The notes beneath the pieces were generated by a model. It worked only from the letters and a program-made list of their open reading frames with translations, ran no database searches and was not told the DNA's origin. A stretch of DNA of 64,000 bases from Candidatus Chloroploca mongolica (lineage in GTDB: Bacteria > Chloroflexota > Chloroflexia > Chloroflexales > Chloroflexaceae): NCBI RefSeq assembly GCF_004762035.2, contig NZ_SIJK02000016.1, forward strand, positions 27,069 through 91,068, given 5' to 3'. A program made the translations under genes and the position numbers. Shown in pieces: positions 21,608 through 49,502 of this stretch (the first letter of the stretch is position 1; the number at the start of each line of letters is the position of its first letter).

Positions 21608-21632
21608 CGGTTCCCACGGCGATCACTGCGAG

Positions 21633-21667
21633 GAGCCGGGATATCTGCCGTCGACAGCTCCCGGCTC
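21633..21667. repeat. Inverted repeat (9-bp arms) after the ParM/ParR-like pair
   Basis: GAGCCGGGA (21633-21641) pairs perfectly with TCCCGGCTC (21659-21667), with a 17-base loop. There is no T-run, so it is less likely to be an intrinsic terminator. It lies in the only sizeable gap (121 bases) of the module and could be an operator, a centromere component or an mRNA structure. Confidence 0.5.
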
Positions 21668-21728
21668 ACCGCTGTCACCCTGTCCCGTGGCTTCCGTAAT
21701 GGTCGAACATTAGAAGGAGCAAACAGTT

Positions 21729-22451: not shown

Positions 22452-22478
22452 TGGGCCAAGCGACGGGAAGAGAGTGGC

Positions 22479-24062
22479 ATGGAAGCATGGTTTCGTGACC
22501 CGGGAAATATGGTTCTGGCGCTGGGCGTGGCCCTCTGCTTGCTCGGCCTTGCCCGCTTCGGGAGGCTTGTCGCGTGGGGTCAACGGATGCAGGCGCTGCA
22601 CGGGCACGCCCTCACCAGCATGCGCGTCTGGCCGCGTGCTCTCGCACGTGCAGGCACCTCCGCTACGTCGGCGCGACCGGCAGCGCCCCCTCGCGCCGAT
22701 CTCGCCGCACCCCCAGCCCTGCTGGCCGGTGCCGGACGGGCCTTACGCGATCCTCCGGGGATCGAAGCAACGCTCAGCTATCTGCGGCGCCACTCGCCGA
22801 ACGACCGGTATCGCTTGCCGTTGGGTTGGTGCCGTTCTGATCGCCAGGAAGCTGGCCTTGTCCATACCGCGCTGGTCGGCGAAACTAACCACATCCTGAT
22901 CAGCGGGGCGAGCGACAGCGGCAAAGACAACCTCGCCTGGTGGATGCTCCTCGCGCTCGCACTGGTGCATCACGAACCGCACGAACTGCACGTGGCGATC
23001 ATTGACGGCAAAGGTCTAGACTTTCAGCCGTGGGCGAGCAAAGCGCAGACCTGGGCGTTGGCAACTGACCCGGAAACGATCCCGGACGTCCTCCGCGCCC
23101 TGACCGCCGAACGCCAACGCCGCAAAGCAGTGCTCACTGCGGCGGGCGTGAGCAAATGGGATCACTATCACGGGCACGATCTGCCCCTCCTGGTCGTCTT
23201 CATCTCGGAACTGAGCCTGCTCGAAACCGCGCTGAAGCGCGAGCGCACCCAGCGTGAGCGTGATCGCACCCTCGACCTCGAACTTGACCTATGGCTCAAC
23301 ACAGAACTGACCGCAGGGCGTGCCTTTGGCATGCGCTATCTCATCGGCATGCAGACCGTCACCGGCATGGACATGCTCTGGCGTTCGCAAATCGGCGTCT
23401 TTATGGGAAGTTATCAACCCGACGAAACCCAGGTCAAACCCAACCTCGCCAAAACCGCGAAGCAGATCGCCGCCGCAGGCGCAGTTCCTCCGCACCACCT
23501 GCCCCCACCGCCAACTGGGGCTGGCGTCTTCACGATTGTCAGTGGCGAGCAATGCATCACCACCCGTGCCCCCTACCTGAGCGATGCCGAACGCCGCCGC
23601 TGGCTGGGCCTGCTGCCGGATCGTCTGCCGACACCTGACCCAGGGTGCCCTGAACCTCCAGCCAATGCGCAGCTTTACCCCAGGCACCGCACCCCATATG
23701 CCCGTTCCAGCGAATATTGCACCACCGCAACCGGCACCTCACCCGGAGCAGCCGCCAGCAGCGGTGTGCTCCCAAACACGGCCTTCGACGGTGCCGCCAA
23801 CGGCGCAGCCCACCCATCAGACGAAACGACTGGCGAATTCAACGCCCCCACAAACCCGATGACAGCAGCCAGCAGCGCAGGTGACCCACTTGCGCTCCTG
23901 CCCTTCACCATCAGCGACATCGCCCGGCTCAGCGCCCGCATCGCCCGGGGCGACACCAAAACCGAGATTGTGCGCAGCATGCCGGGCTACGCCACCCGAC
24001 GACACCGGGAATTTGTCGGGTATTATGACGCCATTGCGGCCATCCTGGGCGAAGAAGGCTGA
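22479..24062 (+). CDS. FtsK/SpoIIIE-type DNA translocase (TraB-like)
   Basis: The 527-residue product has one N-terminal hydrophobic helix (MVLALGVALCLLGLARFGRLV). The FtsK-like ATPase core runs from ~residue 110 to 370 (SLPLGWCRSDRQ-type strand, LVGETNHILISGASDSGKDN, HELHVAIIDGKGLDF, LLVVFISELSLLE, GMRYLIGMQTV...SQIGVFMGSYQPDET). A C-terminal winged-helix-like segment follows (DISDIARLSARIARGDTKTEIVRSMPG). Both nucleotide motifs deviate: Walker A has GKD at 148-150 instead of GKS/T, and Walker B has Ser243-Glu244 where Asp-Glu is usual. AICE-type elements use one FtsK-like hexamer to move double-stranded DNA between cells; no relaxase or type IV genes are visible here. A fragment of this gene's 3' part is duplicated at 31356-31524. 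Confidence 0.8.
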   Translation: MEAWFRDPGNMVLALGVALCLLGLARFGRLVAWGQRMQALHGHALTSMRVWPRALARAGTSATSARPAAPPRADLAAPPALLAGAGRALRDPPGIEATLSYLRRHSPNDRYRLPLGWCRSDRQEAGLVHTALVGETNHILISGASDSGKDNLAWWMLLALALVHHEPHELHVAIIDGKGLDFQPWASKAQTWALATDPETIPDVLRALTAERQRRKAVLTAAGVSKWDHYHGHDLPLLVVFISELSLLETALKRERTQRERDRTLDLELDLWLNTELTAGRAFGMRYLIGMQTVTGMDMLWRSQIGVFMGSYQPDETQVKPNLAKTAKQIAAAGAVPPHHLPPPPTGAGVFTIVSGEQCITTRAPYLSDAERRRWLGLLPDRLPTPDPGCPEPPANAQLYPRHRTPYARSSEYCTTATGTSPGAAASSGVLPNTAFDGAANGAAHPSDETTGEFNAPTNPMTAASSAGDPLALLPFTISDIARLSARIARGDTKTEIVRSMPGYATRRHREFVGYYDAIAAILGEEG

Positions 24063-24172: not shown

Positions 24173-26200
24173 ATGAACAAACAACGTAACACCATAGTTG
24201 TTGGTGCTCTGATACTACTATTAATGTCTGTCTACTCACTACTCGACAGCTTAGTTGCGAGTTGGCTCCAAGAAATACTTGGTTCAAACCTATGGGTGTC
24301 AATTATACCTTTCCTTATCATTGGGGCTATTTTGTTTGGCTGGCAACTGCGAGAGTATAAGAGGAGAAATGACCAAGACTCAATGCCCATTCCCGAAGCA
24401 ATTCGACGAAAGCTTGACCAGGATAGTTTTACTGATGATCTAAACCGCCGTCTACTAAACCGAATGGAACGTGATTGGATACAAGGCTTCTTGCTACCTA
24501 ATACTAAGACCTTTAATCATTTACGATTGACTTATCAGACATCTCATCAAATTAAGAGACCATTTGATGATAGAATTAAATTTCCAAATCCTGTTGTAAA
24601 AAATTTTTCAGGTCTTTCAGATTTATTAACCTACTTTGATGATCATGATAAATGTATTCTTATACTAGGAGATGCAGGGTCTGGAAAAACCATCACGTTG
24701 CTTCAAATTATGAATCAACTTATTATTCGAGCACGTAAACAAAAAGATGATCCCGTACCGGTTTTTTTGCCATTATCAACTTGGTCTGCTGTGGCGGATG
24801 ATTTTGAGTCTTGGATAGTAGAGGCACTAGACAGAGAGTATCATTTTCCAAAAACTGAGATTGCTGAGTTAATACAGAATCGTCGCCTGATCTTCGTATT
24901 AGATGGTTTAAATGAAGTAAAATCTGATCTGCGTGAAACATGTGTCTCTGCAATCAATAGTTATCAGCGCAAATATATGGGAACAGGTCTTATTATTTCC
25001 AGTCGTACTGATGAATATCTTGAAATCAAAAATAAACTTCAAATAGAAGGTGAAATCATTATTCAATCGCTTACAGATAGCATGATTAGAAATGCACTAA
25101 CAACGGCTTTACCAGTGAATTCTATAAATATTTTTCTTCGAGACACGGAAATTCGAAGCTTAATCAACACACCTTTCATGCTTACTATAATTTGTCAAGT
25201 ACATGAAGAACTGATAAACGATTCTTTTCAAAAATCAACATCACCAGAGATCTTGCAAAAAAGACTATTACATGCTTATATCAACCATTTATTTCATCAT
25301 CGCCCTCTAAAAAGAATGTATAACCAAAGCACTACGATTTACTGGCTTTCAAAATTAGCAGTACAAATAAAAAAGAATAATCGCCCGTCATTTCAAATAG
25401 AAAGCATAAGAGTTGAATGGTTGCCAAAGCGTCTTCGTATTATACCTACCTGGATTTTAGGATTTACCTTCAGCCTTATTATTGGAAGTTTCATCGGTGT
25501 AATTTTTGCAATTCTTGATAATAGTATAGTTTTAGGTTTTTTTGCCACTCTTATAATTGGCTCAATTATTTTCGCTTTCTCACAATTTTGGCGTGATATC
25601 GAACCGGTCGAAGCGGTTCGGGTTCGCTTCTCCGCAAAGGAATTTCTAGCGGGCCTCATCTCAACTGTCTTTACAGCGTATGTTCTTTTGTTAATAAGTC
25701 CAAGCAATCCTGTTTACACTTGGATTTTTGCTATATTCCATAGCAGTCTTATAACTGTGAGACGAATGTTAAAGGCAGACATAATTGAAGAAGTCGTATT
25801 TCCAAATCAGCCAATTTTGCGTTCTCTCAGAAATGGGGTACTCATTGGTGTTAGTTATTGGATACTTTCTGGTATTCTTATGGGTCCAGCTTTTGATGTT
25901 GTAACAGGACTAACTGGTGGAGTGAGAGATGGGATAATTGTCGGTTTCTTTTTTGGTTCAATTTTCGGATTACGTTGGGGAGGTCGATCTGCAATTCAGC
26001 ACTACTCAGTTAGGGTAATCTTGAGAATATATAACATCTTACCATTAAGGCTATTTGCTTTTTTAACACATTGCACCGAACTTTCATTAATACGAAAGAC
26101 TGGCGGTAATTATGTGTTTTCTCACCCGATTTTATTAGATTACTTTGTTGATCTGCAAAATAGTAAGATCAAGATAGATGATCCTGATTTTGAATCATAA
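24173..26200 (+). CDS. Membrane-embedded NACHT NTPase (AT-rich, foreign)
   Basis: The 675-residue product has two N-terminal transmembrane helices (IVVGALILLLMSVYSLL; WVSIIPFLIIGAILFGW). A NACHT core follows: Walker A ILILGDAGSGKTITLLQ (Lys172), VPVFLPLSTW, Walker B LIFVLDGLNEV and LIISSRTDEY. The C-terminal half has four to six more membrane helices (WILGFTFSLIIGSFIGVIFAIL, FFATLIIGSIIFAF, FLAGLISTVFTAYVLLLI, GIIVGFFFGSIFGL). Base composition is strikingly AT-rich against GC-rich neighbours, so it was acquired separately from another lineage. The ribosome-binding site is weak. NACHT NTPases are innate-immunity-type switches, some antiviral in bacteria. With both ends membrane-embedded, this one would report or act at the inner membrane. 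It lies directly behind ftsK as cargo. Confidence 0.85.
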   Translation: MNKQRNTIVVGALILLLMSVYSLLDSLVASWLQEILGSNLWVSIIPFLIIGAILFGWQLREYKRRNDQDSMPIPEAIRRKLDQDSFTDDLNRRLLNRMERDWIQGFLLPNTKTFNHLRLTYQTSHQIKRPFDDRIKFPNPVVKNFSGLSDLLTYFDDHDKCILILGDAGSGKTITLLQIMNQLIIRARKQKDDPVPVFLPLSTWSAVADDFESWIVEALDREYHFPKTEIAELIQNRRLIFVLDGLNEVKSDLRETCVSAINSYQRKYMGTGLIISSRTDEYLEIKNKLQIEGEIIIQSLTDSMIRNALTTALPVNSINIFLRDTEIRSLINTPFMLTIICQVHEELINDSFQKSTSPEILQKRLLHAYINHLFHHRPLKRMYNQSTTIYWLSKLAVQIKKNNRPSFQIESIRVEWLPKRLRIIPTWILGFTFSLIIGSFIGVIFAILDNSIVLGFFATLIIGSIIFAFSQFWRDIEPVEAVRVRFSAKEFLAGLISTVFTAYVLLLISPSNPVYTWIFAIFHSSLITVRRMLKADIIEEVVFPNQPILRSLRNGVLIGVSYWILSGILMGPAFDVVTGLTGGVRDGIIVGFFFGSIFGLRWGGRSAIQHYSVRVILRIYNILPLRLFAFLTHCTELSLIRKTGGNYVFSHPILLDYFVDLQNSKIKIDDPDFES

Positions 26201-31302: not shown

Positions 31303-31353
31303 TCACGAACGTTGAGCATAGAGGAAAGACGGACTAGATTGAACGAGGGTACT
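31303..31353 (+). repeat. Direct repeat, left copy (5'-leader of the gene at 38661)
   Basis: The sequence TCACGAACGTTGAGCATAGA...GACTAGATTGAACGAGGGTACT matches 38596-38657 almost base for base, except that the right copy has about 11 extra bases in the middle. The right copy is the leader and ribosome-binding site (GAACGAGGGTACT) of the coiled-coil membrane protein gene. The left copy breaks off exactly there, into a ftsK fragment. It implies the ~7.2 kb between was inserted into, or duplicated around, that leader. Confidence 0.85.
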
Positions 31354-31715: not shown

Positions 31716-33026
31716 ATGATGATTAGCCGTGTCGAGGCCCTGTATTACCGAAGTTTGCGCTATGTTGCTCAAGATGTACGCGCTTTCCAGGTACTCGTAG
31801 GCCCCAATGCCTCAGGGAAATCGACCTTTCTTGATGTGATCGCGCTCCTGGGCGACTTTGTCCGCTACGGGCTCGATCGTGCCTTGCTTTTTGGCACCGA
31901 GTCCGGACGTGGCCGCGCCAGCCGTTTTGAGGAGCTTGTCTTTAATCAGCAGCATGACTATGTTGAACTGGCCCTTGAATTCGCTGTCCCAGCAGCACTC
32001 CGTCAGCCGGTTGGCGAGCATGGCAGCAGCACGATGTATGACCGTGCCCGCTATGAGGTTGTCTTCGGGCTCGCCGACACTGGTGAAGTGCACATCCGTG
32101 CCGAAACCCTCTGGCTCATCGAACACGCACGGCATCCAGCGTCGATCATCGCCACGGATCGTCACCCCGAGCCTGACCTCTTCCCGAGAGAACGCACGCC
32201 GCCAGCGTCGCTGATGACAACGGGAAAGATACCCGCCGGCTGGCAGACGGTGGTGCGCAAGGTGGCAGATGGCGGCAACGATTATTACCAGGCTGAGGGC
32301 GGTACGTGGAACATTGTCTATCGTATTGGTCCACGACGGGCAGCCCTCGCCGGATTGCCAGAGGATGCGGTACGCTTCCCCATCACCCTCTGGATCCGCA
32401 ACCTGCTCCTCGAGGGGGTGCGTGTGCTGGCGTTAAATAGCGTTGCGATGCGTCGCCCCGCAAGCCCATCCCTCTCACGGAGCTTCAGTGTCGACGGAGC
32501 GAATCTGCCGCTGGTGATTCAGGATCTTCAGCGCAACCACCCGCAGGCCTATGCAGACTGGGTGGCCCATCTGAAGACCATCCTCCCCGATCTGACCAGT
32601 GTCTCGGTTCGTGAACGCCCAGAAGATCGGCATCTCTACCTTGCGGTGAGCTATGCCAGTACGGCCGAGCCGGTACCATCCTGGCTGGTTTCTGACGGCA
32701 CCCTGCGTCTTCTTGCACTAACCTTGCTGGCCTATCTTCCCCAGCAAGAGGGCATTTATCTGATCGAAGAGCCTGAAAATGGTATTCACCCGAAAGCACT
32801 GGAGGGGGTCTACCAATCGTTGTCATCAGTCTATAGCAGTCAGATCCTGGTCGCCACGCACTCGCCGCTCTTCCTCGGTCTGGCTGAGCCAGCACAACTG
32901 CTCTGCTTCGCCCGGAATCCTTCCGGGGCCGTAGCGATCGTCACCGGGGATCACCACCCGGCACTCCAGAACTGGCAAGGTGAGGTCGATCTGTCCACCA
33001 TGTATGCCGCCGGGGTACTCGGATGA
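31716..33026 (+). CDS. AAA_21/OLD-like ABC-type ATPase
   Basis: I chose the tandem ATG at 31716/31719, where the conserved start (ISRVEALYYRSLRYV) begins; upstream frame sequence is ftsK-derived junk. Of 436 residues: Walker A VGPNASGKSTFLDVI (Lys35), signature-like SDGTLRLLALTLLAY, Walker B IYLIEEPENGIHP and switch His ATHSPLFL. These are the features of AAA_21 ATPases related to RecF/OLD, used in many two-gene defence systems in which the ATPase senses and a small partner acts. The next gene starts at ATG 33023 overlapping this stop (ATGA), but it is internally deleted, so this module is probably inactive or now relies on other genes. Confidence 0.85.
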   Translation: MMISRVEALYYRSLRYVAQDVRAFQVLVGPNASGKSTFLDVIALLGDFVRYGLDRALLFGTESGRGRASRFEELVFNQQHDYVELALEFAVPAALRQPVGEHGSSTMYDRARYEVVFGLADTGEVHIRAETLWLIEHARHPASIIATDRHPEPDLFPRERTPPASLMTTGKIPAGWQTVVRKVADGGNDYYQAEGGTWNIVYRIGPRRAALAGLPEDAVRFPITLWIRNLLLEGVRVLALNSVAMRRPASPSLSRSFSVDGANLPLVIQDLQRNHPQAYADWVAHLKTILPDLTSVSVRERPEDRHLYLAVSYASTAEPVPSWLVSDGTLRLLALTLLAYLPQQEGIYLIEEPENGIHPKALEGVYQSLSSVYSSQILVATHSPLFLGLAEPAQLLCFARNPSGAVAIVTGDHHPALQNWQGEVDLSTMYAAGVLG

Positions 33027-33158
33027 CAAAAGATCTCGTCATCCTGACGACTGATGTGCAGCAAGAAAAGATGCTGGAGACGCTGCTCCGTGAGCGATTG
33101 TAGCGACCCGTCCTTTGTCCTCCTGCGTGAGACCTTAGCGCGCTGGTTTGCTCAGTAG
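33023..33158 (+). pseudogene. Internally deleted partner gene of the AAA_21 ATPase
   Basis: An ATGA overlap starts a frame reading MTKDLVILTTDVQQEKMLETLLRERL and stopping at 33103. In another frame the following bases read SDCSDPSFVLLRETLARWFAQ with a stop at 33156-33158. The two pieces look like the beginning and end of one small protein, with the middle (and one frame step) removed. I recall AAA_21-coupled proteins with this kind of start (K-D-L-V-I-L..D...E..L..LL) and a WF ending, but I cannot name the family. The deleted part would have been the probable effector. Confidence 0.6.
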
Positions 33159-33224
33159 GTAGCTCATCGCGTTAGCTTTATCCACCGGCAAAGTCTATGC
33201 CCGCTTTATCCCGACAGGTACCCG

Positions 33225-34475
33225 ATGAGCATGCCGCGTTTGACCCACTTCCTCACCCTGGCCCGCGATCAGACCGCGCTGATTGTGGATCTCTGTGCGG
33301 ATCCTGATTGGCTCAGCCGAGCCCAGTTGCTGCATTACCTCGAACACCACGGGGTACCGGCAGCACAAAAGGACGACCTGATTGAGGCGCTCTGCCAGGC
33401 CGCGATTCTGCTGGTCGAACATCAGGCCGGCTTCATCGTAAACCCGGCAGTGGTTGACCTGGTCAACTACTACGAGCGACGCGGTCGGCTGATCAGTGCG
33501 ACCTTCCTGCGCGATCAGATGCTCGCCATTGCCGACTTGACCGGACGCCTCCAGCGCGAGCTCTTTGCCGCCGAGGTTGATCACCATGCGATCTTCGATG
33601 TGATTGACGATCTCTACCGTCTGGTACGTGAGGTGCGTCAGGCTGGCCACGACCACTATGTCGCCTGTATGCGTCTCCTTGGCGATATTAAGCGCGCCGG
33701 CGGCAAGCATTCGCTTGCGCAGCGCCTGCAGGATCTTGAGCATGCCCAGCGCCGCTATATCGAGCCGCTGCGTGAACTGATTGACCCCAGCGGTGATTAT
33801 GTGCTGCACATCACCCAGTTACGGCGGCAGGTCGGCGAACTTGGTCGTCAGGATGTGCTGCTCGCCCAGTCGCAGGAGCTCGACAGCCGACGTCGGCGTC
33901 TGATCAGTGACCTGCACTTTATCGACCACGAACTCCTCCGCGGCTTTGCGGCGATCGTCGACACCGCTCGCACCCTGCTGCACTCGCTCCTTGATGAAAA
34001 GTCGCTCAAGGATGCGCTCACCTTCTGCCTGGCCCGCCTCGATCAGGTCTGGCTGGCAGTTGGAACGACAACGCTGATCGCGGCCGGGCGCAATACCTTC
34101 CATGCTGCGCCGATGGAGCGCATCGAGACCTTCTTTGCTGATGTGGTTCACCGCCGATTGCTGCCACAGCCCCGGGCCCTGACCATCAGCCCTGCTGTGC
34201 AGCGCCACGCTGAGGATATGGTGCTGACTGAGCGCCACCTCTGGCAGACGATCGCGACGGTTGGGACGATTTCGAGTTGGCCTGCTTTCGTGACCAGAAC
34301 CTTCCCGACCTACGTTGAGGAAGAACAACTCCGGGCGATGGTGCTGCCGTTGCTGCGTCCACATCCACAGGTCGCTCTGGAGCTCCACGATACGCTGTTC
34401 CGCCACGAGCTCAGTGCGCAGACGCTGCAGTTGCGCGACTTTGGCGTGCGTTGGGAGGAACGTTATGCCCGCTGA
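33225..34475 (+). CDS. jetA: Wadjet-like JetA (MukF/kleisin-type subunit)
   Basis: The 416-residue protein is almost entirely helical. Its winged-helix-like N-terminus (DPDWLSRAQLLHYLEHHGVPAAQKDDLIEALCQAAILLVEH) and long helical middle (QDLEHAQRRYIEPLRELIDPSGDYVLHITQLRRQVGEL) fit a kleisin of the MukF/JetA class. Identification rests mainly on context: it is first of four overlapping or closely spaced genes whose third is an SMC-like ATPase and fourth a Toprim nuclease, the jetABCD order. In Wadjet the kleisin bridges the SMC heads and helps recruit the nuclease, which cuts plasmids after loop extrusion. The start at 33225 has only a weak AGGT; a second ATG lies at 33231. It overlaps jetB by 11 bases. 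Confidence 0.78.
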   Translation: MSMPRLTHFLTLARDQTALIVDLCADPDWLSRAQLLHYLEHHGVPAAQKDDLIEALCQAAILLVEHQAGFIVNPAVVDLVNYYERRGRLISATFLRDQMLAIADLTGRLQRELFAAEVDHHAIFDVIDDLYRLVREVRQAGHDHYVACMRLLGDIKRAGGKHSLAQRLQDLEHAQRRYIEPLRELIDPSGDYVLHITQLRRQVGELGRQDVLLAQSQELDSRRRRLISDLHFIDHELLRGFAAIVDTARTLLHSLLDEKSLKDALTFCLARLDQVWLAVGTTTLIAAGRNTFHAAPMERIETFFADVVHRRLLPQPRALTISPAVQRHAEDMVLTERHLWQTIATVGTISSWPAFVTRTFPTYVEEEQLRAMVLPLLRPHPQVALELHDTLFRHELSAQTLQLRDFGVRWEERYAR

Positions 34476-35022
34476 TGTACCACCCCATAGCGCCGAGATC
34501 TGCCAGCGTCTGCTGCGGGGATATCAATTTAGTCGGTCGGATCTGTCTTCCGGTGATCTCGGCCCCCTCTATGCTGAACTCGATGATCGCTTCGTTTGGT
34601 TCCAGAACCACCTCGCGGCATCAGGCTTCAGCCTTGTCCGTGATGGCGAGGTCATGCTGCTGGAGAAGGAGCAGAAGGAACTGACCAATGAAGAGCGTCA
34701 GACGGTAGTCACGCTCTTCCTGCTCAGCGATCTCTGGCTCGAGCAGGGCGGCAGTTACGCCGATCTCTTCAGTATGCCCATGCGCTGGTTTGATCTCAGT
34801 TGGCTGCGCGATGGCTATGGTCGTGAGTATCTGGCCCAGGTTGGCATCCAGGATCTCGATACCATCGAAGACCTCTGGCGACGCATCGCCCGCAAAGGCT
34901 TCGTCACCTACCATCCCGAGACGCGCACCCTGACCCTGCGTGATCCTGCCGCACGCATCCTTACTATGGCGCGCCGACTCCATCAGCACCTGCGGAGCGC
35001 CGAGGAGGACGCACATGCGTGA
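34465..35022 (+). CDS. jetB: Wadjet-like JetB (MukE-type subunit)
   Basis: ATG 34465 lies inside the jetA end and has GGGAGG seven bases upstream. The 185-residue protein has features of a MukE/JetB winged-helix subunit: SGDLGPLYAELDDRFVWFQNHLAASGFSLVRDGEVMLLEKEQKELTNEERQTVVTLFLLSDLWLEQGG, then a second winged helix (GREYLAQVGIQDLDTIEDLWRRIARKGFVTYHPETRTLTLRDPAARIL). JetB binds the kleisin and tunes its interaction with the SMC dimer. It overlaps jetC by eight bases, indicating translational coupling throughout the operon. Confidence 0.8.
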   Translation: MPADVPPHSAEICQRLLRGYQFSRSDLSSGDLGPLYAELDDRFVWFQNHLAASGFSLVRDGEVMLLEKEQKELTNEERQTVVTLFLLSDLWLEQGGSYADLFSMPMRWFDLSWLRDGYGREYLAQVGIQDLDTIEDLWRRIARKGFVTYHPETRTLTLRDPAARILTMARRLHQHLRSAEEDAHA

Positions 35023-37687
35023 GATGGTCAGCAGCATTCTCAAACTTGGCTTGATCAATAGTGGCATGTTCGACACGCTGGAGCTCAATACCGATGTGCG
35101 TGCCGTACACCTGGTGGGCGACAACAACGTCGGCAAGACCAGCCTGATTGAACTCATTCAATTCCTCTATTTCCCTGACCTACGCGAGATGCATTTCTCA
35201 AAAAGCCTCTCCGAGACGTTAGCCTTCTACTTCCGCCGCGAGGGTTCCTATATCCTTTTCACCGTGCGCACGGTGCGCGGCACCCAGCGCACGCTCGGTG
35301 TCTATGGCACTGGCACCGCCGACTCGCGCCAGGTCTTCGCCTTCGACGGGGCCTTTCACCTGGTGGACTTTCTCGATGAGCAACGCCACGTACTATCGCC
35401 TCAGCGCGTCGGCGTACGTCTGGCCGACCGGCGCTTCTATCTTTACCAGCGTGCCGAAGATCACGAACGTGGGCTGGTCGGTGAGCAGAACGAGGATCAG
35501 GCGAACGTCCATCTCTTTGACCTGGGACGCGGCAACTTTCGCCTGCTACGGCGCTTGCTCCAGAACCTCCTGCGCCTGGAGCGTCTGACTGCCCGCGATA
35601 TTCGTCTCTTCCTCAACGCCCTGGTGGAGAGCACTGGTGCGAAGACGCGTATTGACGTTGCGCGTGACTTCGACCGCAAGTATACCGAGGCCCGCAACAT
35701 CCGCGATCGCATCAATAGTTTGTTGCGCCTCAAGCCATTGATTGACCAGTGGACTGCGGCTGTCGAACGACGCGAACAGGCCGCGAGGGACGAACATGTG
35801 GCCCGCCTCCGCCTGAGCTACGCGGCGCAACGCTACGCTGAGATGCTTGAAGAAGAGCAGGGCCACCTGGGCAGGCGTGCCGCTGCTCTGAGCGTGGCCT
35901 TGGTCGAGCTTGAGGAGCAGCGCCAGCGGCTTGCCAATCAAATTGCCGAGCAGCGTAGCCGAACGGTTGAACTGCAGCGCATGCTTGATGAGTTGCAGCG
36001 CCTAGCCGAGCGCTGCGTCGGCTATCGGCGGGAGCAGGTGCGCACCGAGCGCAACCAGCTCAGCTACCAGGCGATCGAGCTCGAGAAGCGGATCGAGCAG
36101 GCCGGCAGCGTGAGCGTCGCGCAGATCGAGGGTCGGCTACGAAAAGCCCACGATGATCGGGATCGTATCCGCCGCCTCATCGAGAGCCGCACCGTCAGCC
36201 ACCTGCTGGCCGAGGCCGACCTGAGCGATGATCAGCGTGCCCTCCTACGCTTCCTTGTCTCCGAGCAATTGCTCAGCCTGCCCCTCGCCGACACCGTCAC
36301 CGATGCAGCACAGCTGCTGGCGTCCGCGCATGCCGCCGCCGCCCGGATCGACCCGCAGGGGGTCTTCCACGGCTTTGGTCTCAGCATCGTTCGCAGTGTC
36401 TGGTATCGCCCGACCGCCGACGAAGAGCCGCTCGCCGACCGACTCGCCGAGGTCGAGCAGCGCATCCTCACCCACGAGCGTGAGCTGGCGATTGCCCGCG
36501 ACCGCGAGCAGATCCAGCAGCAGATTCGATCCCTGCAGCGCCAGGTCAACGAGCTCGAAACACTGCTCGGCACGCTTCAGCGTCTGGAAGAGCTGGAAAT
36601 AAGCAGCGGCGGAGCGGCGGCCGTCGCGCGGGAGCTAGAGTCCTGTCGGCGCGAGCAGCAGGAGTTGGAAGCACAGCAGCGCCCGCTCGCCGAGCGCGTT
36701 CGCGCACATCAGGATGCGCAAGTGACGCTTCGGACGGAGCTAAGCACGCTCCAGCATCGGCTCGACGAGGTGCGCCAGGTGGGCAGAGAGATCGGCGACG
36801 CGGCAGAGCCTTGCCCGGCCGACATCGCCAGTGTGGCTGCCGAAGAATTACCCGAGCTCTTTCGGCTGAGCCGCGAGCGACATCGCGATCTCCGCAACGA
36901 GCGGCGGCGCACTGAAGAGGCGCTGCACGAGCCACGTGCCCGTCTGGACGATCTCTATGAGCGCGAGGCACCAGAGACGACCTTCACCGCCTGGGTGACC
37001 GAAAAACGCCTGCTGACAGCCGAAGTTGATCGGCTCGAAGCCCAGTTGCATGAAAGCTACGCCAACCTGGTTACGCTGGTCAAAGGCGAGCTTGACAAGC
37101 TCACGCAGGCTTTCGAGATCATACGCAGCCGGGTTGCCGAGCTGAACAACGGCATTCGGCGGGTAAGCATCTCGAACATCGAGCGCATCGAGCTCCATGT
37201 ACAGGAGAGCCAATTGGTTGAAGCCATCAGGCAAACCAGCCAGCTCCAATTCGATATGTTCGCGCCGAGCACAGGGAGCCTCTCGCTGGAGGCAGCTGAG
37301 CAACAGATCGAGCACTACTTGGTCGACACGCTGCGTGCGCACGGGCGCGAACTGAACCTCGACGATCTCTTTCAGCTGGAATTTCGGGTGACCTACGCCC
37401 AGACCGGTGAGCAGCGTACCGTCACCGAGATCCACGCCTTCGAGTCGAACGGAACGGCAATCGGCGTCAAGATCGTCGTCTACCTGGGCCTGATCCGTCT
37501 GCTGCAGGGCACCCGGCGCAGCATTGTTACCCGCATTCCCTTCTTCCTTGACGAAGTTGGCAGCCTTTCCAGCAACAACCTCCGCCAGATCATCGCCTAC
37601 TGCACCGAGCATCACTTTCTACCGATCTTCGCGAGCCCAACCATCACTCCTACATCTTGCAGCGCGATGGAGATCGAAGTTGGCTGA
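35015..37687 (+). CDS. jetC: Wadjet-like JetC (SMC/MukB-type ATPase), 3' end frameshifted
   Basis: ATG 35015 has GAGGAGG nine bases upstream. The 890 residues as read comprise an N-terminal ATPase half with Walker A LVGDNNVGKTSLIELIQFL (Lys41), two long coiled-coil arms (about 240-400 and 480-740, rich in RLEELE, RREQQELEAQQRPL) around a shorter hinge, and a C-terminal half with Walker B/D-loop FFLDEVGSLSSNNLRQII (Asp846). The end is odd: after FLPIFASP the frame gives TITPTSCSAMEIEVG and stops. Adding one C near 37643 gives HHSYILQRDGDRSWLINEVILTEREH and a stop at 37761, overlapping jetD. A 1-base deletion (real or consensus error) is therefore likely. JetC extrudes DNA loops in plasmid defence. 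Confidence 0.85.
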   Translation: MREMVSSILKLGLINSGMFDTLELNTDVRAVHLVGDNNVGKTSLIELIQFLYFPDLREMHFSKSLSETLAFYFRREGSYILFTVRTVRGTQRTLGVYGTGTADSRQVFAFDGAFHLVDFLDEQRHVLSPQRVGVRLADRRFYLYQRAEDHERGLVGEQNEDQANVHLFDLGRGNFRLLRRLLQNLLRLERLTARDIRLFLNALVESTGAKTRIDVARDFDRKYTEARNIRDRINSLLRLKPLIDQWTAAVERREQAARDEHVARLRLSYAAQRYAEMLEEEQGHLGRRAAALSVALVELEEQRQRLANQIAEQRSRTVELQRMLDELQRLAERCVGYRREQVRTERNQLSYQAIELEKRIEQAGSVSVAQIEGRLRKAHDDRDRIRRLIESRTVSHLLAEADLSDDQRALLRFLVSEQLLSLPLADTVTDAAQLLASAHAAAARIDPQGVFHGFGLSIVRSVWYRPTADEEPLADRLAEVEQRILTHERELAIARDREQIQQQIRSLQRQVNELETLLGTLQRLEELEISSGGAAAVARELESCRREQQELEAQQRPLAERVRAHQDAQVTLRTELSTLQHRLDEVRQVGREIGDAAEPCPADIASVAAEELPELFRLSRERHRDLRNERRRTEEALHEPRARLDDLYEREAPETTFTAWVTEKRLLTAEVDRLEAQLHESYANLVTLVKGELDKLTQAFEIIRSRVAELNNGIRRVSISNIERIELHVQESQLVEAIRQTSQLQFDMFAPSTGSLSLEAAEQQIEHYLVDTLRAHGRELNLDDLFQLEFRVTYAQTGEQRTVTEIHAFESNGTAIGVKIVVYLGLIRLLQGTRRSIVTRIPFFLDEVGSLSSNNLRQIIAYCTEHHFLPIFASPTITPTSCSAMEIEVG

Positions 37688-37723
37688 TCAATGAGGTCAT
37701 TCTGACCGAACGAGAACACGTTG

Positions 37724-38545
37724 ATGAAACCACCCACGTGGATCGCGCAACTCGCCCATGACGGGGCGGTCGCATATAGCCAGATCAGCCGTGCGCACGA
37801 AACGCTCCTTGCACAACTGCGTGCGCTCCGCCTAGTCGAGGTTGACGTGCAAGGCAGTCGGCGTCGAGTGATCGTACGCGAACCAGACGGGTTTGCCGAG
37901 TGGCTCGCGAAGCACTATCCCGATGTGGTAGCTCCGCCAGTACCTGGCCAGCGGGCCGCGAACATTGCCCGTGTCCGCAACAGCAAGTCTGGTCTAGTCA
38001 CCCACACGGCTCAGCCGCTGCTGCTGCGCTGGTTCAGCAGCGAACCTGCCTCACCCTGGGCCGAACTGACCCGGCGCTGCGGCATGATCGGCATCACCAG
38101 TGATCGTCTTGCCGTGCTCGACCTCCCCGATCTCTGGACACTGCTAACCGTCGAGAATTGGGAGTCATTCCTGGCGCTGGACGACGCACCCCAAACCGGC
38201 ACGATCATCGCCGTCTTCACCGGCGGCAATATCGCGGAAACAACGCTCCAGGCGCTGGCCGCACTGCGACCAGCACCAGGGTACGCCGTTCACTTCGGCG
38301 ACTATGACTGGTCTGGCCTAGCGATCTATCGACGTATCCGAGCGGTCTTCCCGCAGAGTCTGCTCCATGTCCCGGCTGACCTCGCGACACTCTTCCACAG
38401 ATTCGCCAACCACGAACTCCTCCATGGACAGTTGCCCCTCGTGGCCCGTGAAGACGACTCATCTGAGGTGCGTGCCGTCATTGCGCTGATCGCGCAATAC
38501 AATGCTGGCCTGGAGCAGGAGATTGTGCCCCCGCCGAGGCTCTGA
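37724..38545 (+). CDS. jetD: Wadjet-like JetD (Toprim/DUF2220-type nuclease subunit)
   Basis: ATG 37724 follows jetC directly (it would overlap the restored jetC end by about 38 bases). The 273-residue product has an N-terminal helical/winged segment (AYSQISRAHETLLAQLRALRLVEVDVQGSRRRVIV). Its C-terminal Toprim-like core shows the DUF2220 pattern: the conserved Glu in LLTVENWESFLALD, then TGTIIAVFTGGN, and the acidic pair in YAVHFGDYDWSGLAIYRRI. JetD cleaves plasmid DNA once the SMC complex has extruded it. It is shorter than the ~400-residue JetD of type I Wadjet, pointing to another subtype (II or III; not resolved here). Confidence 0.82.
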   Translation: MKPPTWIAQLAHDGAVAYSQISRAHETLLAQLRALRLVEVDVQGSRRRVIVREPDGFAEWLAKHYPDVVAPPVPGQRAANIARVRNSKSGLVTHTAQPLLLRWFSSEPASPWAELTRRCGMIGITSDRLAVLDLPDLWTLLTVENWESFLALDDAPQTGTIIAVFTGGNIAETTLQALAALRPAPGYAVHFGDYDWSGLAIYRRIRAVFPQSLLHVPADLATLFHRFANHELLHGQLPLVAREDDSSEVRAVIALIAQYNAGLEQEIVPPPRL

Positions 38546-38595
38546 AGGTGCGCGTTGACCAGGGCGGTCTCTTGATGATGGTTAGAGTTTACTGG

Positions 38596-38657
38596 TCACG
38601 AACGTTGAGCATAGAGGAAAAGAAGGCACATGACGAACTAGATTGAACGAGGGTACT
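38596..38657 (+). repeat. Direct repeat, right copy, carrying leader and RBS
   Basis: This matches 31303-31353 (see that entry) and includes GAACGAGGGTACT, the ribosome-binding region of the gene starting at 38661. Together the copies bracket the ftsK relic, AAA module and jetABCD. Confidence 0.85.
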
Positions 38658-38660
38658 TTT

Positions 38661-41396
38661 ATGCGAAGATCAAAGCTCATGTCATCTGTGGTAATTACTA
38701 TCGTCGTGATGTTCTGCTTGCTTGGATTCGATGGAAAGACCCAAGCCCAAGCCGTAAGCGCTGCTGACCCCGGGTTGGCTGGGCAGACTGCACCGCCAAA
38801 ACAAAATCAGGAGCAGCGGCCGAACGTAATCCTTGAGCCAACAGCCACAACCATCGCTACTACCTTGTGGTACTGGCCGTTCACCAGTCCGGTTATGCTT
38901 GAGTTCGTCGTACGCATCCCACCAGGAAGCAACCCGGCAACCTTCACGCCAAGCATTGATCCCGTGCGCGTCGTGCGCGAGAATGGGGTTGATGCAAACG
39001 TCGGCGGGCTAACGCAGAGTCTCCAGTGGCGCACTGCGGATGGGAGTCTGGCACCAATCAGCACGTTAGCCGACTCAACCCAAGCAGTAGCCGACGATAC
39101 CGAACAAACAATTAGCTATGTCGCAACGCTTCAGGGCCTGGGGCCGGGCAAGTACACGAGTGCGGTCAGAATCGCCGGTGCTCCTCCCGAGGTTCGCACT
39201 GAGCTAACTATTTTGGTTCGTAGTAGCCCGCTCTTGCCTACGATAATCATCGCGCTGAGTATGATCGCGACCCTGCTGCTCTACACTTGGAACAAGACGA
39301 TGCGCACGCGAACCAGACGTCAGTTGGAGGTTGAACAGCAACGAGCGAAACTTGCCCAACTTCATCCACCGCTGGACAGACCGACCGCTGCGCCTGTGAC
39401 CCAGAAACCATTACCAGATACACCGCCCGATCCGATCTGGTTCCAGCTTGATCGTGAGTTGCAGCGGTTAGGTCAACGTGATGATCTGGATCGACAGCAG
39501 TTTCAGACCATGTTTGATGTGCTGCAGGAGTGTTTTGAGCGTTACAGTACTGTGTTGACGCACGCAGCGCAATTGTCAGCGCAGATTGCGAGCATAAAAT
39601 GTACGGAGAACGAGCGTGCATTGCTCAAGCAACGATACGAGGCAAACCTGACGCATCTGCGCACCACACTAGGTGAACCGCTCGATCGTCGACTGACAGC
39701 GGTGCGTGAAGCGCATAATGCGCTGGACAACCTGCGTGCCGAGGTACAGCGTACGATCCTTACCTCAGTGGCCGAGCCACTCATCAAAAACCTGAGCGAA
39801 CTTGCCACAGGTAAGGCTAAGGCTGCCATCGTCACTGATGCCAGGGTCTTGCAGCAACAACTGGAGACTGCTGATCAGGCCGCCACCGATTTCGCCGGAC
39901 TTCATCGGTGGCAAACGACCATCGAGGAAGCGCAGTTCAAGTTCGTGGCGCTCAAGGTGCGCCAACTCAAGCATGCGGCAGGACAATTAGCTGCCGAGGC
40001 GCACGAGTTAGAGCCACCCCTCACGCTTGATCAACAACTCATCCTGACACAAGTTGAGGCAGCCGAGCAAAGCGGGCCGGATCTGGACAAGGCCTTTGAA
40101 GCGATCGGAGTTGCTGAAAAGCATCTGCGCAAGCTGCAAGATGACCTCCTCCTCAGCCTGACATCTGGAACATGCCGCCCACACCAATGGAGTCAGCAGC
40201 AGTGGCAGGAAGCCCTGCAGTCCATGTCCCCACCTGATTTGACTGCCCTCGCCATTGCCGTTCAGCATACGACTGACGGTGAGGTGCGTGAACAGTTGCT
40301 AGCGACGATGCGGGCCAACTATAGCGGGGTTCTGCTTAAAGCGGCTGACCAGTTTCGCACGGAGTATCTGGCGAGCACATTTGATCAACTGATGCCCGTG
40401 TCAGATCAGGATGCGAGCCTGATTCAACGCATCCAGCAACTCAGACAAACTATCGAGCAGATCGACTTTGCGGTTCAGCCCGCCACCAGTGAGCCTCGAC
40501 AGCTACACGCGGATCTGCAACGCTTGCACTCAGGTCTACAGCAGCTGTGTGCGGCGCGCCTGGATGCAATTGATCTCGCCATTCAATGGCTCTATGATCC
40601 TGCCCATTTAAAGTTCGAACAACCCATGCAACCTGATAAACTGGCCGCCGTATACCAGAACCAAGCCAGAGCCCGTCATGCTCTGCAGCACGGGCAGGCT
40701 GAAGATGCAACAGTATCCTTCGTCCAGACCGAGCAAGCACTGAACAGTGCTGAAACTGTGCTGCAAGAGCTGCATGCGGAGATGTTAGACCAATTGGAAA
40801 CATTCGTATCGATAGAAATGCAAGACCTCTATCCGGATTTTACTGAACGCCCTATGGAAGACCTGATAGAAGAACTCCGTTCGAAAGACCCCACTTTGAA
40901 ACATATTCGTTTGCAAAACCCCGCTTTGAACAACTTCCAGGTGAAAGACTTCTTTTCGGAAGATCGTCCTTTCAACATCTCTCTCGAAGGCATCCCTGGA
41001 GCAACCGCATTGAACGTGGGGCCTGCGAAGAAGAGGGAAGAGCGCAGTACGAGCACGCCATCGACGCCTTCTGTTAGGGCTCTGCCCACCACCGTACCAA
41101 CCTGGCTTATCACAAGTGGGGGCGAGATCCTTACCCTGAAGTTGGTACCGCAGCAGCGGCATGGCGAACGTCGTGCTGATTTCGCAGAGCGTGTGCGTAA
41201 ACGGATCGCCCTGCTAGATTGGGCAGCTTTAGGCGTAGCGCTCTCTTTCAGTGTGGCGATCGGGCTAGGTGTACTCTGGATGCCCAACCCAACCTTCGGC
41301 GCACCACAAGACTGGTTGCTCGCGCTGCTCTGGGGGACGACCACGCAGGCTGGAGTGACGACCCTTGTGGGCGATCCGTCCACACCTGAAAGCTGA
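38661..41396 (+). CDS. Membrane-anchored coiled-coil protein of unknown function
   Basis: ATG 38661 is preferred (GAGGG eight bases upstream); an in-frame TTG lies at 38643. The 911-residue product has a signal peptide (VVITIVVMFCLLGFDGKTQAQA), an extracytoplasmic beta-rich domain (about 40-180), and a membrane helix near 190-210 (LLPTIIIALSMIATLLLYTW). A long charged helical region (~210-690: LTHAAQLSAQIASIKCTENERALLKQRYEANL) and a short pentapeptide-like patch (PTLKHIRLQNPALNNFQVKDF) come next. Two hydrophobic segments end the protein (WAALGVALSFSVAIGLGVLW; DWLLALLWGTTTQAGVTTLV). I recognise no family. The topology (outside domain, cytoplasmic stalk, C-terminal membrane hairpin) would suit a mechanosensor, scaffold or defence-associated membrane protein. 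Its leader is duplicated on the far side of the Wadjet block. Confidence 0.75.
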   Translation: MRRSKLMSSVVITIVVMFCLLGFDGKTQAQAVSAADPGLAGQTAPPKQNQEQRPNVILEPTATTIATTLWYWPFTSPVMLEFVVRIPPGSNPATFTPSIDPVRVVRENGVDANVGGLTQSLQWRTADGSLAPISTLADSTQAVADDTEQTISYVATLQGLGPGKYTSAVRIAGAPPEVRTELTILVRSSPLLPTIIIALSMIATLLLYTWNKTMRTRTRRQLEVEQQRAKLAQLHPPLDRPTAAPVTQKPLPDTPPDPIWFQLDRELQRLGQRDDLDRQQFQTMFDVLQECFERYSTVLTHAAQLSAQIASIKCTENERALLKQRYEANLTHLRTTLGEPLDRRLTAVREAHNALDNLRAEVQRTILTSVAEPLIKNLSELATGKAKAAIVTDARVLQQQLETADQAATDFAGLHRWQTTIEEAQFKFVALKVRQLKHAAGQLAAEAHELEPPLTLDQQLILTQVEAAEQSGPDLDKAFEAIGVAEKHLRKLQDDLLLSLTSGTCRPHQWSQQQWQEALQSMSPPDLTALAIAVQHTTDGEVREQLLATMRANYSGVLLKAADQFRTEYLASTFDQLMPVSDQDASLIQRIQQLRQTIEQIDFAVQPATSEPRQLHADLQRLHSGLQQLCAARLDAIDLAIQWLYDPAHLKFEQPMQPDKLAAVYQNQARARHALQHGQAEDATVSFVQTEQALNSAETVLQELHAEMLDQLETFVSIEMQDLYPDFTERPMEDLIEELRSKDPTLKHIRLQNPALNNFQVKDFFSEDRPFNISLEGIPGATALNVGPAKKREERSTSTPSTPSVRALPTTVPTWLITSGGEILTLKLVPQQRHGERRADFAERVRKRIALLDWAALGVALSFSVAIGLGVLWMPNPTFGAPQDWLLALLWGTTTQAGVTTLVGDPSTPES

Positions 41397-41464: not shown

Positions 41465-44400
41465 CTAAACCGCATACGTTCCCGTCCCCAGCATCGTCGC
41501 AGCAATCTTGGCATAGTCAGGATTGATTGGCCGGTCATCCTGGCTAAACTGCTCCGCCCGGTCAATAAAGAGTGTGGCTGATTCACGGTTTTTGCCAAGT
41601 TGAAGATGCGGATGCAAGCTGGCCAACTGGTGAGCTCTGACGCATCGGCCAGCCTGCACAAGCGCTTCAATTTGGAAGGCTAGCGGGGTGAGGTAGGTTG
41701 GTCTGACCCAGGTACGTACCTGTTCGAGGGTTATAGCGAGCATATCAGCGTACTCCGGATCACGCTGTGGCTCGAACGTGTACTTCAGCTTCGCAGGCAT
41801 CTCCCAAGTCACCTCGTTGTGGCGCAATGAGCCCATTGGACCAAAGATATCTTCCAGGATGCGTGCCATGCGTACCGCAAGATTCCAGCGCCTGAATGGC
41901 AATGGCTCAGGTAGCTTTGCCAACGTCGCAGCATACCCACCAGTAAGCAGCGAGTCGATGCATGTGTGGCTCAACGCAAGCCCATCCTGATGCTGCTTAC
42001 AGAAGTCTAGATAGGCGCAGATCGCGTTCGTGTATGAGTTGAAGCGACTCTGGATGAGTCGGTGCGCCTCGGTGGAAAGCGTTCCACTCGCATTGAGGAG
42101 CGCATGAAATGTGGTCAGCAGCCAGGCCACCGACGAAGCTTGCGTGTGATTGGTTGCTTGCGATCTAGTCAATAATTGCAATAGCCGCAGCTGATCCTCA
42201 AGGGGAAAATACGCGATCTCATCAGGAAGGAGGGTACAAATTCGTTCTTGCAATGCTTCAGGAGCTTGGCGTAGTTTCTGGTGAACATACAGGCGAAAAT
42301 CTGGTTGCGTTGCGAGCTGTGCTTGAATCCACGCTAAGCTGTGCGGATGGAAGGCGGGTACGGCAAGGGTCTGCATCACATAGGCAACAAATAGGTCGGC
42401 TTCATGCGCACACACCGTTTGCCATGCCTGATGGGCTTGGGCGGCAAGCGGTGGAATCTGGAACAGTGCATAGGCCATAGGCCCGAGTTGGGCAATGGCG
42501 TCGGTTCGCTCCGGGGGGCTTGGCAAGAGGCGGATCCCTACCTGGAGCAGATGAAGCCGATCCTCATGGGGGAGACTGGCTTCAATATTCGCAAAGCGCT
42601 TCATCCATGTAGCAAAATCGTCCCAGGTTTGCGGTGAAAATGATGGTTTGAGCAGGCCATAGAGCGCGTTGAGCCATGTGGGAGTGGCTGGCACTGCCGC
42701 CAAGAAGCTATCGCGGTGCGGCCCTGGCGGAAAGGCCGCACATGTTGCGAGATAGGATGTGAGCAGAGCAGGGCTTTGCTCACATCCTTCTTGCCACTGC
42801 TGGTGAACCGTTGCGCGTATCACCGGATTGTCCACAGTAAAGAGCGAAACGGCAAGCGGCTGAAGCAATTCGGCGGTTAGGGTGCAAACTTCTTCTTGAG
42901 ACCGCAGCACCCCAATGTATTGTGTGAATTGGCGCAACCTCTCCTCAGGTGGTTCGGCCAGGATCTGGGTACTATGATGCAACAGCCAATTATGGAGTGT
43001 GGATCGATAGGCCAAGATGATGGCACGATCTTCGCTGCGATAGACGAAATCGTCGAGGTGAGGGATTTGAGCTTGTAACCAGGCGTATGCGTTATCAGGC
43101 AAGCGATCGGCATTACGCGAGAGCATCCGTAAGGTTGCACCTAGGACTTCAAGTGCATTGGTACGATCCTCACTGGTCGCAAGCATCGACAGCGCATATT
43201 TGACCAGCTGCAGCTGAACATCCAAGCTCTCGCCACAAATTTCTTTCTGCCAGCATGTTATCCAGGGCGCCAACTCATGCCAATTCGATGGCAATTCCGT
43301 TGATTGCGCCCAGCGGTAGATGGTCGGCCGCATTGAAGCGTGCGCAGGATCAAGCGTTGCCATAAACTGCATGAGTAGAGCTTGTCCACCAGGGATAAGC
43401 AGATATAGCAATGCGTGTATGCGTGCGTGTTTAGGATAGCGCTGGGCCTCGGCTTGCAGGGCGGCCTGAGCGGTCGGTGGTAATGGAGCATCAATCAGTG
43501 TCCCCGCCTGGGCGCGTAACCACTCGGGAATGGTGCTTAGTTCCGCTTTTTCGCTCACGACGAGCGTGATCGTATGACGAAGCACAGCTAGGCGATCATC
43601 GAGTTCATCAGCGCGTAGCTCATCAATGAAACGGCAGACCCAGCGACGAAAAGAGTCTGTGTGTTTACTCTGGAGTGCCGTTGGTTTCAGTTTCAGGTAG
43701 ACCGCACGATGGGTAACAGGGTGGTGCGTACGCAAGAAGGCGAGAAATTGGTTGATCAACTCCTCGCTGAACAGCGATGTTTCATGATGGGTGATGTAGG
43801 TGGCAATGGCATCGGGATCAGGCATGCAGATCCGTTGCCATACTTTGTGCGCAATGGGGCCAGTTTCAGGATCGCTAAGCAACGGCATGAGCAGCGGACT
43901 CAGCGCCGCAACGAACTGATCGTGTGGAGCATCAGACCTCGCCAGTTCACCCCACCTGTTGACTAGCCGTACCCGTTCCCTAGCTTCCTCAGCACAAATT
44001 TCAGCGCGAAACCAGGTAAGCCAGATCTGTAACGCCCGCCAACTTTTGATTTCCCCGTGGCGCTTGAGCTTTGCGTAGACGGCACTGCGGGTCGCTGGAT
44101 CCTGGCGGGCAAGCAGGTTGAGGAGCTCAATAGCGTATAGAGCCGTCTCGGGGCGGCGCTGGGTGAGGATAAGATACTCAACGGCAAGGTTCGTGCAGCC
44201 AACGCAAGCTTGCTGCCACAGTGGGTGAACCTCGGAGGCGCTGCTCGGCTCGCTCAACAGCGGTAACGCAAGGGGCTGGAGCTGGATGGCTGCTTGTTCC
44301 CGGCTTGGGCCAACGGGAAGCGCCGCGATCCCCTCACGCAGACGCCGCAGGCGTTCTTCAGGAGTATCGCTCAGGAGTTCGCTCGCGAACTCGGTGAGAT

Positions 44401-47400
44401 ACCACACCGTCGTCGCCCATGTCTCCAGCCCCAGGCGGGTACGGATGACTTGATACACCGCTGCTTGCAGAGGCTGGATCTGATGAAGTTGCGCAATGAT
44501 ATTCAAGTTGGCTGGGGCAACCTGGAGTGCAGTGGTGGTGATCTGTTGGGCGATCACACTCGTCAACACAGCGCTCCCAGCAAGAGCGATCTGCGCCATA
44601 CGCAGCCGCTCGTTGGGGGTTTCCAGCAGACTGATCAGCCGTGTGGTGAGCGACAGATGCGTGCTCAGCGCCTCATCAGAAAGCTCCGCCACCACCGCAC
44701 GCCGATCATCGGCAGACCAGGCTTCCCAGGCAACCGCGTTCTGGTCAAGGGCCGTAGCAATTGGTTCAGCCCGCGTCGCACGGTCGCCGGTGAGCCAAAC
44801 CTTCAGCAGCAGCGGTGCTTCTGGGCCAGACCAGGCGACCGGGTAGGCCTCGTCAAGCAGCAGCCCTAACGTTGTCCAACTCAGCGCAGGTACGGCACGA
44901 GCGTAGAATGGTTCAGCGAGCGAGCGATCCTTGGCTAGTCGTGCCGCACGCAGTGCAAAGTGCTGATGCCGTTGTTCGTCGTGCAGGACGCCAGGGGCAG
45001 CGTAGAGGTCGGCGAGGGCCGCACATGGCTCAAAGAGGAATCGATGACTGTCGGGGTTCCGCTGCTCTTGTAGAGCCAGCAAGTCTTGCCATGTCTGGGC
45101 TTCGACCTCCGGCTGACCTTGACGTTGGGCTAGCTTAATCCGCTGGCGACATATGCCCAATGAAGTAGGCTGAGCGCGCCACGCTTGTTCGACGAGCGCA
45201 CTAACGACCTTTACATCGGCGTCGGTGGCTATCTGCACCAGGTTCTGGATAAGCTCAAGCAGATCACTCTTTCGAACTTCTAGCAGGCCTCTGATCATCG
45301 TAGACGCCCGGATGACTAGTGCGCCACGATGCGTCGGTGTATCAAGTAGCAGACGATTTGTCCATCCCTGGAGGTAAGCAAGCAAGGCGTGGCCGGACTG
45401 CTGCGCACGCTGCATTGCGTTCAGTAGCGCTTCGACTTGGTCGGGAGACGGAAAATCGGTGACGTACTGTTCAATCGTGTCAAACAACTGCGCTAGCTCA
45501 GCACTCATGCGGGCCACTACCTGCTTGCGCTGCTCGAGCGATGCCGTGAAGTTCTCGGAAGGTACGCAGCGGCTACAACTCAGGCAGTTGTCGCCGACAA
45601 TCACCTCAAAGGTCTTGAGGTAGCCAAGCAGCACTCCGCGCAGGCAAAGCTTGTTGCCCTGGGTACCGATCTGACCGTCAGGCTCGACCCCAACATAGTC
45701 AGTGAGCAGTCGGTGGTAGGCAGCCCAGTCGTTGTCCTCGCGACTATCGTGGAGCGCCATGAATGCGTTCAAGTAAGCGTCAAAATCCTGATCACGCTCC
45801 AGAGCCGGTCCAGCCAGAATCTCCCAGCCCTGTGGCCTACGTAGTTCGGGCCAAGCAAACCAATCGTCCAGCGTGATCTCCTGACGCCCGTTTTTGTACG
45901 GACGTCTAGCTTTACGCGCCCGCTGGTCGGCCTCATTCTTTTTTGCTCGTCGTACTGCGCCCGCATAGGCTCGCCAAGCAGCCAGACTCTCGCGGCCCTG
46001 GGCAGGGCCGTAATAGGGTGCGCCAATGGCTCTATAGGTAAGGAGTTTATCCTGACGCGACCCGGAGGCACCGGATTGAAACTGCTTGATGTCGCTCACG
46101 AGTTGGGTAACTTCGCTCAGAGGCTGCTTGATCCGGGTAGCAAGCTCGATCAGATCGCCGCTGTGCAAGATGCTGGTGAGTTCTGCTGCCGTTAGACGAG
46201 TCTCACACAACACCGCCCCGAAGTACGCATTTGAATTCAGGATGGCTGGGGCATCGTGAACCTGAGGCTGGATGAGGAGGGCACCAACCTGACAGTATGC
46301 CTGCACCAGGCTCTCGCGGGGGCCGTCCGAACCCACGCGAGGACGGATACGATAGACGACGTCGAGGATGCGCTTGATATAGTCGGTTTTGTGGGCATAG
46401 CGATAGCCACGCTCAAGCAACTCCTGATGCTCGGCAGACTCTTTGCCTTCAGGCTCACGGTCTGGCCATTCAGGCCATGTGTAGGGTGCGGTTAGTCCAG
46501 CCAGACTAGGCTGTTCGCTACAGCGCTCAAAGAAAGCGATGGCCTCATCATTGGTGATGTAGATGCGCCCAACGATCTTGCGTCGCGCTGAGCGGAGAAA
46601 CGCACGCATAACCAAAACATCCTCACGGCGAATATACTTATCGGCCAGGAAGCGTCGCTGAATCTCATCATCAGAGGGAAGTTGAGTTTGTTTCCGTTCG
46701 CTCTGCTCCATAGGCGCATCAGGGCTGTAGTAGAGGATCACTGTTGCTGGTTCACCGTCACGCCCGGCCCGTCCGGCCTCCTGTGCATAGGCCTCAAGAT
46801 TGCCAGGAGCGCTCCGATGGATGACGAGACGAATGTTCGGCTTATCAATGCCCATGCCGAAGCCTTTCGTCGCCACCATGATCGCTCGCTCGCCTTTGAT
46901 GAAGGCCTGCTGCTGCTCTCGTCGGCTACGCCCGCTCAGGTCACCCAGGGGGGGCGCTTGTTGCGGAGCGAAGCAATCCTCTGGCTCTTCCTCCTCGTCG
47001 TCCTCCGGTGCTGCGCTGGCGCTATCAAACTCCATCCTGCCGTGGTAGACCGCAACCCGTTCGGCAAGCGCTCGCTCCAGATAGGAGGCAAACGACGAAG
47101 CGCCGGGACTGAGGCGGCCTTGGTTTGCTTCACCGTTTCGACGGGTATACGCTAGTTTGCCCCCGGTGTAGGGCATAAAGACAATCGCTGCGCCAGGGGC
47201 CTCGTTCTGCTGATTATGGGCAAGGAGTTGTTGCAACTCAGTGAGGATGCTCTCGGTTTTGTCTTCAGTCGTTCGACAGACGCGCACCACCAGATTGAGC
47301 TCTGGTCGGTTTGAGGATTCGATGAAGAGATTGCCGCCGGCATCAAGCGGGCGCGGATCCAGATCTAACTCTTCACAAATGTCGCGACGCACCTCGGGGC

Positions 47401-49462: not shown

Positions 49463-49502
49463 ACACACCTTTGACAGAAATAGCTTGGCCCAATGATGGA
49501 CT

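Follow-up and report, generated by a model that had tools for sequence, protein, structure and literature searches.

A compact jetABCD-like operon of probable MksBEF affinity, with a frameshifted SMC gene, in a defence island of Candidatus Chloroploca mongolica

Gene content of the operon

The stretch of DNA analysed here (64,000 nucleotides; hereafter the window) comes from contig 68 of a 6.3-Mb draft genome whose family also includes Candidatus Oscillochloris fontis. Positions 33225–38545 of the forward strand comprise four co-directional genes, jetA, jetB, jetC and jetD. The first, jetA (33225–34475, +), encodes a 416-aa protein in the kleisin position and is kept in 11 operons. It is followed by jetB (34465–35022, +; ATG at 34465), encoding a 185-aa KITE subunit; jetC (35015–37687, +), encoding a frameshifted SMC-type ATPase of 890 aa; and jetD (37724–38545, +; ATG at 37724), encoding a predicted winged-helix and Toprim nuclease of 273 aa. 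jetA and jetB overlap by 11 bp and jetB and jetC by 8 bp; the overlap throughout reported in the initial annotation does not extend to the last pair, where the jetC stop at 37687 precedes the jetD start. Because dN/dS against three relatives is 0.06–0.23 for all four genes, indicating purifying selection, they are not chance open reading frames. No sigma-70 promoter-like site was found in 32900–38800, a search that is uninformative. An imperfect direct repeat (left copy 31303–31353, right copy 38596–38657, +) flanks an upstream ATPase gene together with jetABCD, and is possibly a cassette boundary or a duplicated promoter region; two copies are also present in a same-genus genome (G260), with none elsewhere in the five genomes searched.

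Profile searches recovered the SMC, MukE-like and Toprim features first noted by eye, as SMC, MksE and Toprim/JetD domains, respectively. JetB matches Pfam MksE (PF21980; 54.4 bits against a cut-off of 27, E = 2.5e-14). JetC aligns along its whole length with NCBIfam MksF (E = 2.1e-26), a name that there denotes the SMC-type ATPase subunit, at 92 bits against an equivalog cut-off of 1900. JetA has no significant match to a curated family, and its assignment as kleisin is based on where its gene lies in the operon and on its profile match to the first genes of MksF-type operons. Searches of PDB sequence profiles returned no credible relative.

JetD contains the Pfam JetD_C domain (E = 9.2e-10; 38.6 bits, cut-off 22). 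Five residues, E144, D193, D195, E264 and E266, are invariant in the family. They line up with residues of type I JetD and match the pattern of catalytic residues in Corynebacterium glutamicum MksG, where E236 and D279 bind metal and E349 and E351 have been proposed as nucleophiles (PMC10123090). A winged helix is predicted with good local confidence for the first ~65 residues, and a PDB fold search gave only weak winged-helix matches to this N-terminus (best E 0.02). The rest of the AlphaFold model is poor; the JetD and JetA models, both built from four-row alignments, reached mean pLDDT values of 58 and 40, respectively. No relatives of JetD were found in phage records, nor relatives of JetC on the viral contigs searched.

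The jetC lesion and loss of the operon

Comparison with three close relatives places a 16-bp deletion in jetC at the junction 37644–37645 (+), the missing nucleotides being present in all three. Beyond this point the frame runs through about 13 unrelated residues to the stop at 37687, leaving the last ~39 residues of JetC out of frame. The original 3' end (37645–37761, +; HSYILQRDGDRSWLINEVILTERE...) is still recognisable, being readable in the other frame up to a stop at 37759–37761, and the family profile recovers it there (model positions 874–919, E = 7e-11); in relatives the JetC end reads FASPTIRSDIPHSYILQRDGDRSRLVNEVILTERE. Eight positions that are invariant in all ten intact relatives fall within the lost tail, which, by analogy with the heads of other SMC proteins, should form the final strands of the ATPase head. 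The shortness of JetC that had been taken to set it apart is thus partly an artefact of the frameshift, as the family norm is 909–923 aa. The deletion also abolished the overlap of jetC and jetD, which is ~35 bp in intact relatives (in the OHK40 locus, jetC ends at 10515 and jetD starts at 10481). A programmed frameshift was considered and rejected, given the 16-bp gap relative to the relatives and the lack of a slippery heptamer.

The operon has been lost elsewhere. G260, ~96% identical in the flanking genes, lacks 33027–38373 (jetABC and most of jetD); this deletion occurred across a short shared motif, CGG[A/C]TGAC, and leaves a 268-bp stretch starting in the 3' end of jetD. A second, older remnant, in which the ATPase gene that lies upstream is joined at its end to mid-jetD, is found on contig 72 of the source genome (at ~320 kb) and has a shorter counterpart in G260. 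In Clostridium cellulovorans, spontaneous loss of jetABCD has been described in a mutant whose plasmid uptake is raised (PMC12287153); for Mycobacterium smegmatis, a null mutation in the system is reported (PMC10586767). Together, the natural frameshift and the deletions suggest repeated loss of the system. More widely, comparison of G260 with window positions 17223–50621 showed several deletions that leave gene stubs, including 19147–22274, a NACHT gene at 24173–26200 (of which the last ~30 bp are kept) and 425 bp of the ATPase gene.

Could the window allele nevertheless be functional, either because the frameshift is an assembly error or because the shortened JetC still works? The deletion is read from a single assembly of the species, so that an assembly error is possible, and the absence of further decay in the out-of-frame tail means that the lesion is either recent or such an error. 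The Walker A (GDNNVGKTS), signature and Walker B (FFLDEV) motifs of JetC are all intact, the remaining genes are under purifying selection, and JetC could keep part of its activity even with its last strands missing. Against this, a 16-bp gap is atypical of sequencing error, the eight invariant residues are gone, and the same operon has left deletion remnants in the same-genus genome and at a second site. We consider a working allele unlikely, although it is the most serious of the alternatives. With ~39 residues of the ATPase head lost, eight of them invariant, the system in the window most likely has no activity, or is strongly impaired, and is heading to loss; plasmid restriction by this allele is, on sequence grounds, doubtful.

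Relatives and genomic context

Genome searches in Chloroflexota and Desulfobacterota identified ten further distinct intact operons that share these four genes and their sizes. Three are from the same bacterial family (OHK40, O. fontis and an Oscillochloris bin), one is from another Chloroflexi MAG, and the others are from Desulfobacterota or related proteobacterial genomes, among them the complete Desulfosarcina widdelii chromosome; two loci of this last group with near-identical scores were counted once. JetA spans 413–437 aa and intact JetC 909–923 aa across these operons. JetD is 269–277 aa in the 11 loci, so its shortness, remarked upon at the outset, is a true family trait.

The operon resides recurrently in defence islands. 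That of O. fontis adjoins Eco57I methylase and GmrSD genes, and that of the other Chloroflexi MAG adjoins genes for MZB and PLD proteins, neighbours suggestive of DISARM. In the window, the island includes STAND/NACHT NTPases, a TIR protein, a CHAT-STAND protein, the type I restriction subunit HsdR and a giant helicase. Directly downstream of jetD, 38643–41396 encodes a 917-aa membrane-type protein without a Pfam match. A 2682-aa protein (41465–49513) combines an N-terminus that by eye is methyltransferase-like with a helicase core of DEAD/RecQ type, and its C-terminal region is very long and has no Pfam match; 50732–57170 encodes a 1869-aa CHAT protease-like/NB-ARC/TPR protein followed by a TIR-domain protein. 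The NACHT gene at 24173–26200 has 36–39% G+C within an island of ~60% G+C, which suggests import; its stub in G260 shows that the gene was present before the two species diverged.

The replication and partition genes that the initial annotation placed beside the operon are real: an IstB/DnaA-like ATPase (18518–19384), an actin-like ParM-type protein (20097–21116) and an FtsK-like protein (22479–24062). This module (18518–24062) lies 9–15 kb (about 12 kb) upstream, with three STAND/NACHT genes and one ATPase gene in between. Nothing found here ties its function to that of the operon, and the proposed competition with a plasmid-like element is unsupported.

The operon is patchily distributed (4 of 41 family genomes), and this spread, the defence-island context and the loss in the same-genus genome argue for an accessory system rather than a housekeeping one. 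These observations weigh against the operon being a chromosomal MksBEF condensin whose fourth gene is a topology helper and no plasmid nuclease, as does the retention in JetD of all the proposed catalytic residues. In favour of a condensin, the SMC and KITE subunits match MksF and MksE, and MksBEF of Pseudomonas aeruginosa, of the MksF branch, contributes to chromosome segregation (PMC10586767, PMC7485682); this chromosome-acting relative counts against a role in plasmid defence. On balance a condensin is improbable. The outcome that the initial annotation named as refuting a Wadjet, best matches to MksBEF without JetD function, was found by half: SMC and KITE group with MksF and MksE, but a JetD with a complete active site accompanies them.

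Classification of the operon

PADLOC models for JetA and JetB (DUF4194) of Wadjet types I, II and III gave no match, for JetA at E ≤ 1. The JetC models (DUF3584/MukB-like) were marginal for window JetC (best E 0.008) and reached 1.9e-7 in some relatives, for which LmuB models give the higher scores. The JetD1 models match window JetD at 36 bits over its last half, the Toprim domain, only. Across the family, Toprim/JetD_C is present in 11 of 11 members and the DUF3322 arm in none of the 11. The same genome carries an intact type I Wadjet (contig 72, at ~287 kb) that scores 191–1258 bits per subunit (JetA 487, JetB 204, JetC up to 1171 and JetD 385 aa); as PADLOC finds this operon, the models work in this organism. 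The early impression of an unusual subtype was therefore borne out, at least in that these models do not assign the operon to types I–III.

Profile–profile comparison (hhalign) points elsewhere. Against plasmid-borne four-gene operons, probabilities were 95, 97, 100 and 99% for JetA, JetB, JetC and JetD, respectively; against type I they were 0.3, 22, 95 and 97%, the JetC value covering 308 columns in the N-terminal part and the JetD value only the Toprim domain. These plasmid operons score 147–314 bits on the MksF model, above window JetC, and their match to the present operon indicates an MksBEF branch carrying a JetD-type nuclease. The tree has long branches; from it we take only that the close family groups together, apart from the two type I sequences. 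An ordinary if diverged Wadjet belonging to one of types I–III, for which the A-B-C-D gene order and the JetD1 match speak, is very unlikely in view of the PADLOC results beside those for this genome's type I operon, the hhalign values for JetA and JetB, and the restriction of the JetD alignment to Toprim.

What stood of the original Wadjet-like label is an SMC-plus-nuclease operon in a defence island; its branch is MksBEF, and its jetC is broken here. A kleisin, a KITE, an SMC and a Toprim nuclease with invariant catalytic residues do occur in one operon, as in Wadjet in the broad sense, with all four genes intact in ten relatives and jetC frameshifted in the window. Judged by sequence, the compact operon is a variant of Wadjet-like SMC-nuclease systems barely recognised by PADLOC models, so surveys relying on those profiles undercount this family.

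Proposed function

We propose that the locus is a compact, MksBEFG-like JetABCD operon of the MksBEF branch, plasmid-cutting by design, with jetC broken and the system likely inactive in the window, a reading to which we assign a probability of roughly three in four. Type I systems work through JetABC dimers that extrude loops of DNA; when the substrate is a small circle, the two motors run into each other and JetD makes the cut (PMC10586767). By analogy, the ATP-driven, loop-extruding motor of the present operon would consist of JetA (kleisin position), JetB (KITE) and JetC (SMC), and the short winged-helix and Toprim nuclease JetD would cut small circular DNA once extrusion completes; circle sensing and plasmid cleavage are both carried over from type I. 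The ancestral function was probably that of a plasmid-cutting SMC-nuclease, of which this strain holds a probably inactive copy. With the motor gene damaged, no or weak activity is expected here, and protection of the cell may still come from contig 72, where the type I operon is intact.

In type I JetB, an IFDR motif is reported to contact JetD (PMC10586767); it is absent from the N-terminus of the JetB alignment here. More tentatively, and at somewhat less than even odds, these operons may represent a fourth, compact class of plasmid-cutting SMC-nuclease systems within the MksBEF branch, in which a minimal winged-helix/Toprim JetD is activated without a DUF3322 arm or the JetB IFDR contact. 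If true, this would link Wadjet to the chromosomal condensin MksBEF, and it touches on the question of whether MksBEF condensins descend from defence systems that lost the nuclease. Nearly all of the Wadjet mechanism comes from type I, and a review calls the other types uncharacterised (PMC10586767); a compact relative from the MksBEF branch could reveal which parts of JetD are needed for activation.

Comparison with known systems

With Wadjet type I (JetABCD; C. glutamicum MksBEFG), the compact operon shares the kleisin–KITE–SMC–Toprim order and the same Toprim active-site residues. It differs in its SMC, of 909–923 aa as opposed to about 1100 in type I; in JetA and JetB, which are unrelated at the profile level; in its 273-aa JetD, which has no DUF3322 arm; and in the N-terminus of JetB, which has no IFDR. 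With the MksBEF condensin (NCBIfam MksF, Pfam MksE) it has in common an SMC and a KITE of the same branch and their size, whereas JetC scores far under the MksF cut-off and a JetD-type nuclease gene is added. The likeness extends to all four subunits, alignable profile to profile, in the MksF-type operons with a JetD-like gene, annotated as hypothetical, on plasmids of Salinibacter (pSR76), Polaromonas (pPNAP02) and Pseudomonas Leaf58 (pBASL58). The JetD proteins of these operons are 231–336 aa; their SMC proteins are ~27–34% identical to that of the compact operon in matching pieces, and, unlike it, these operons are plasmid-carried.
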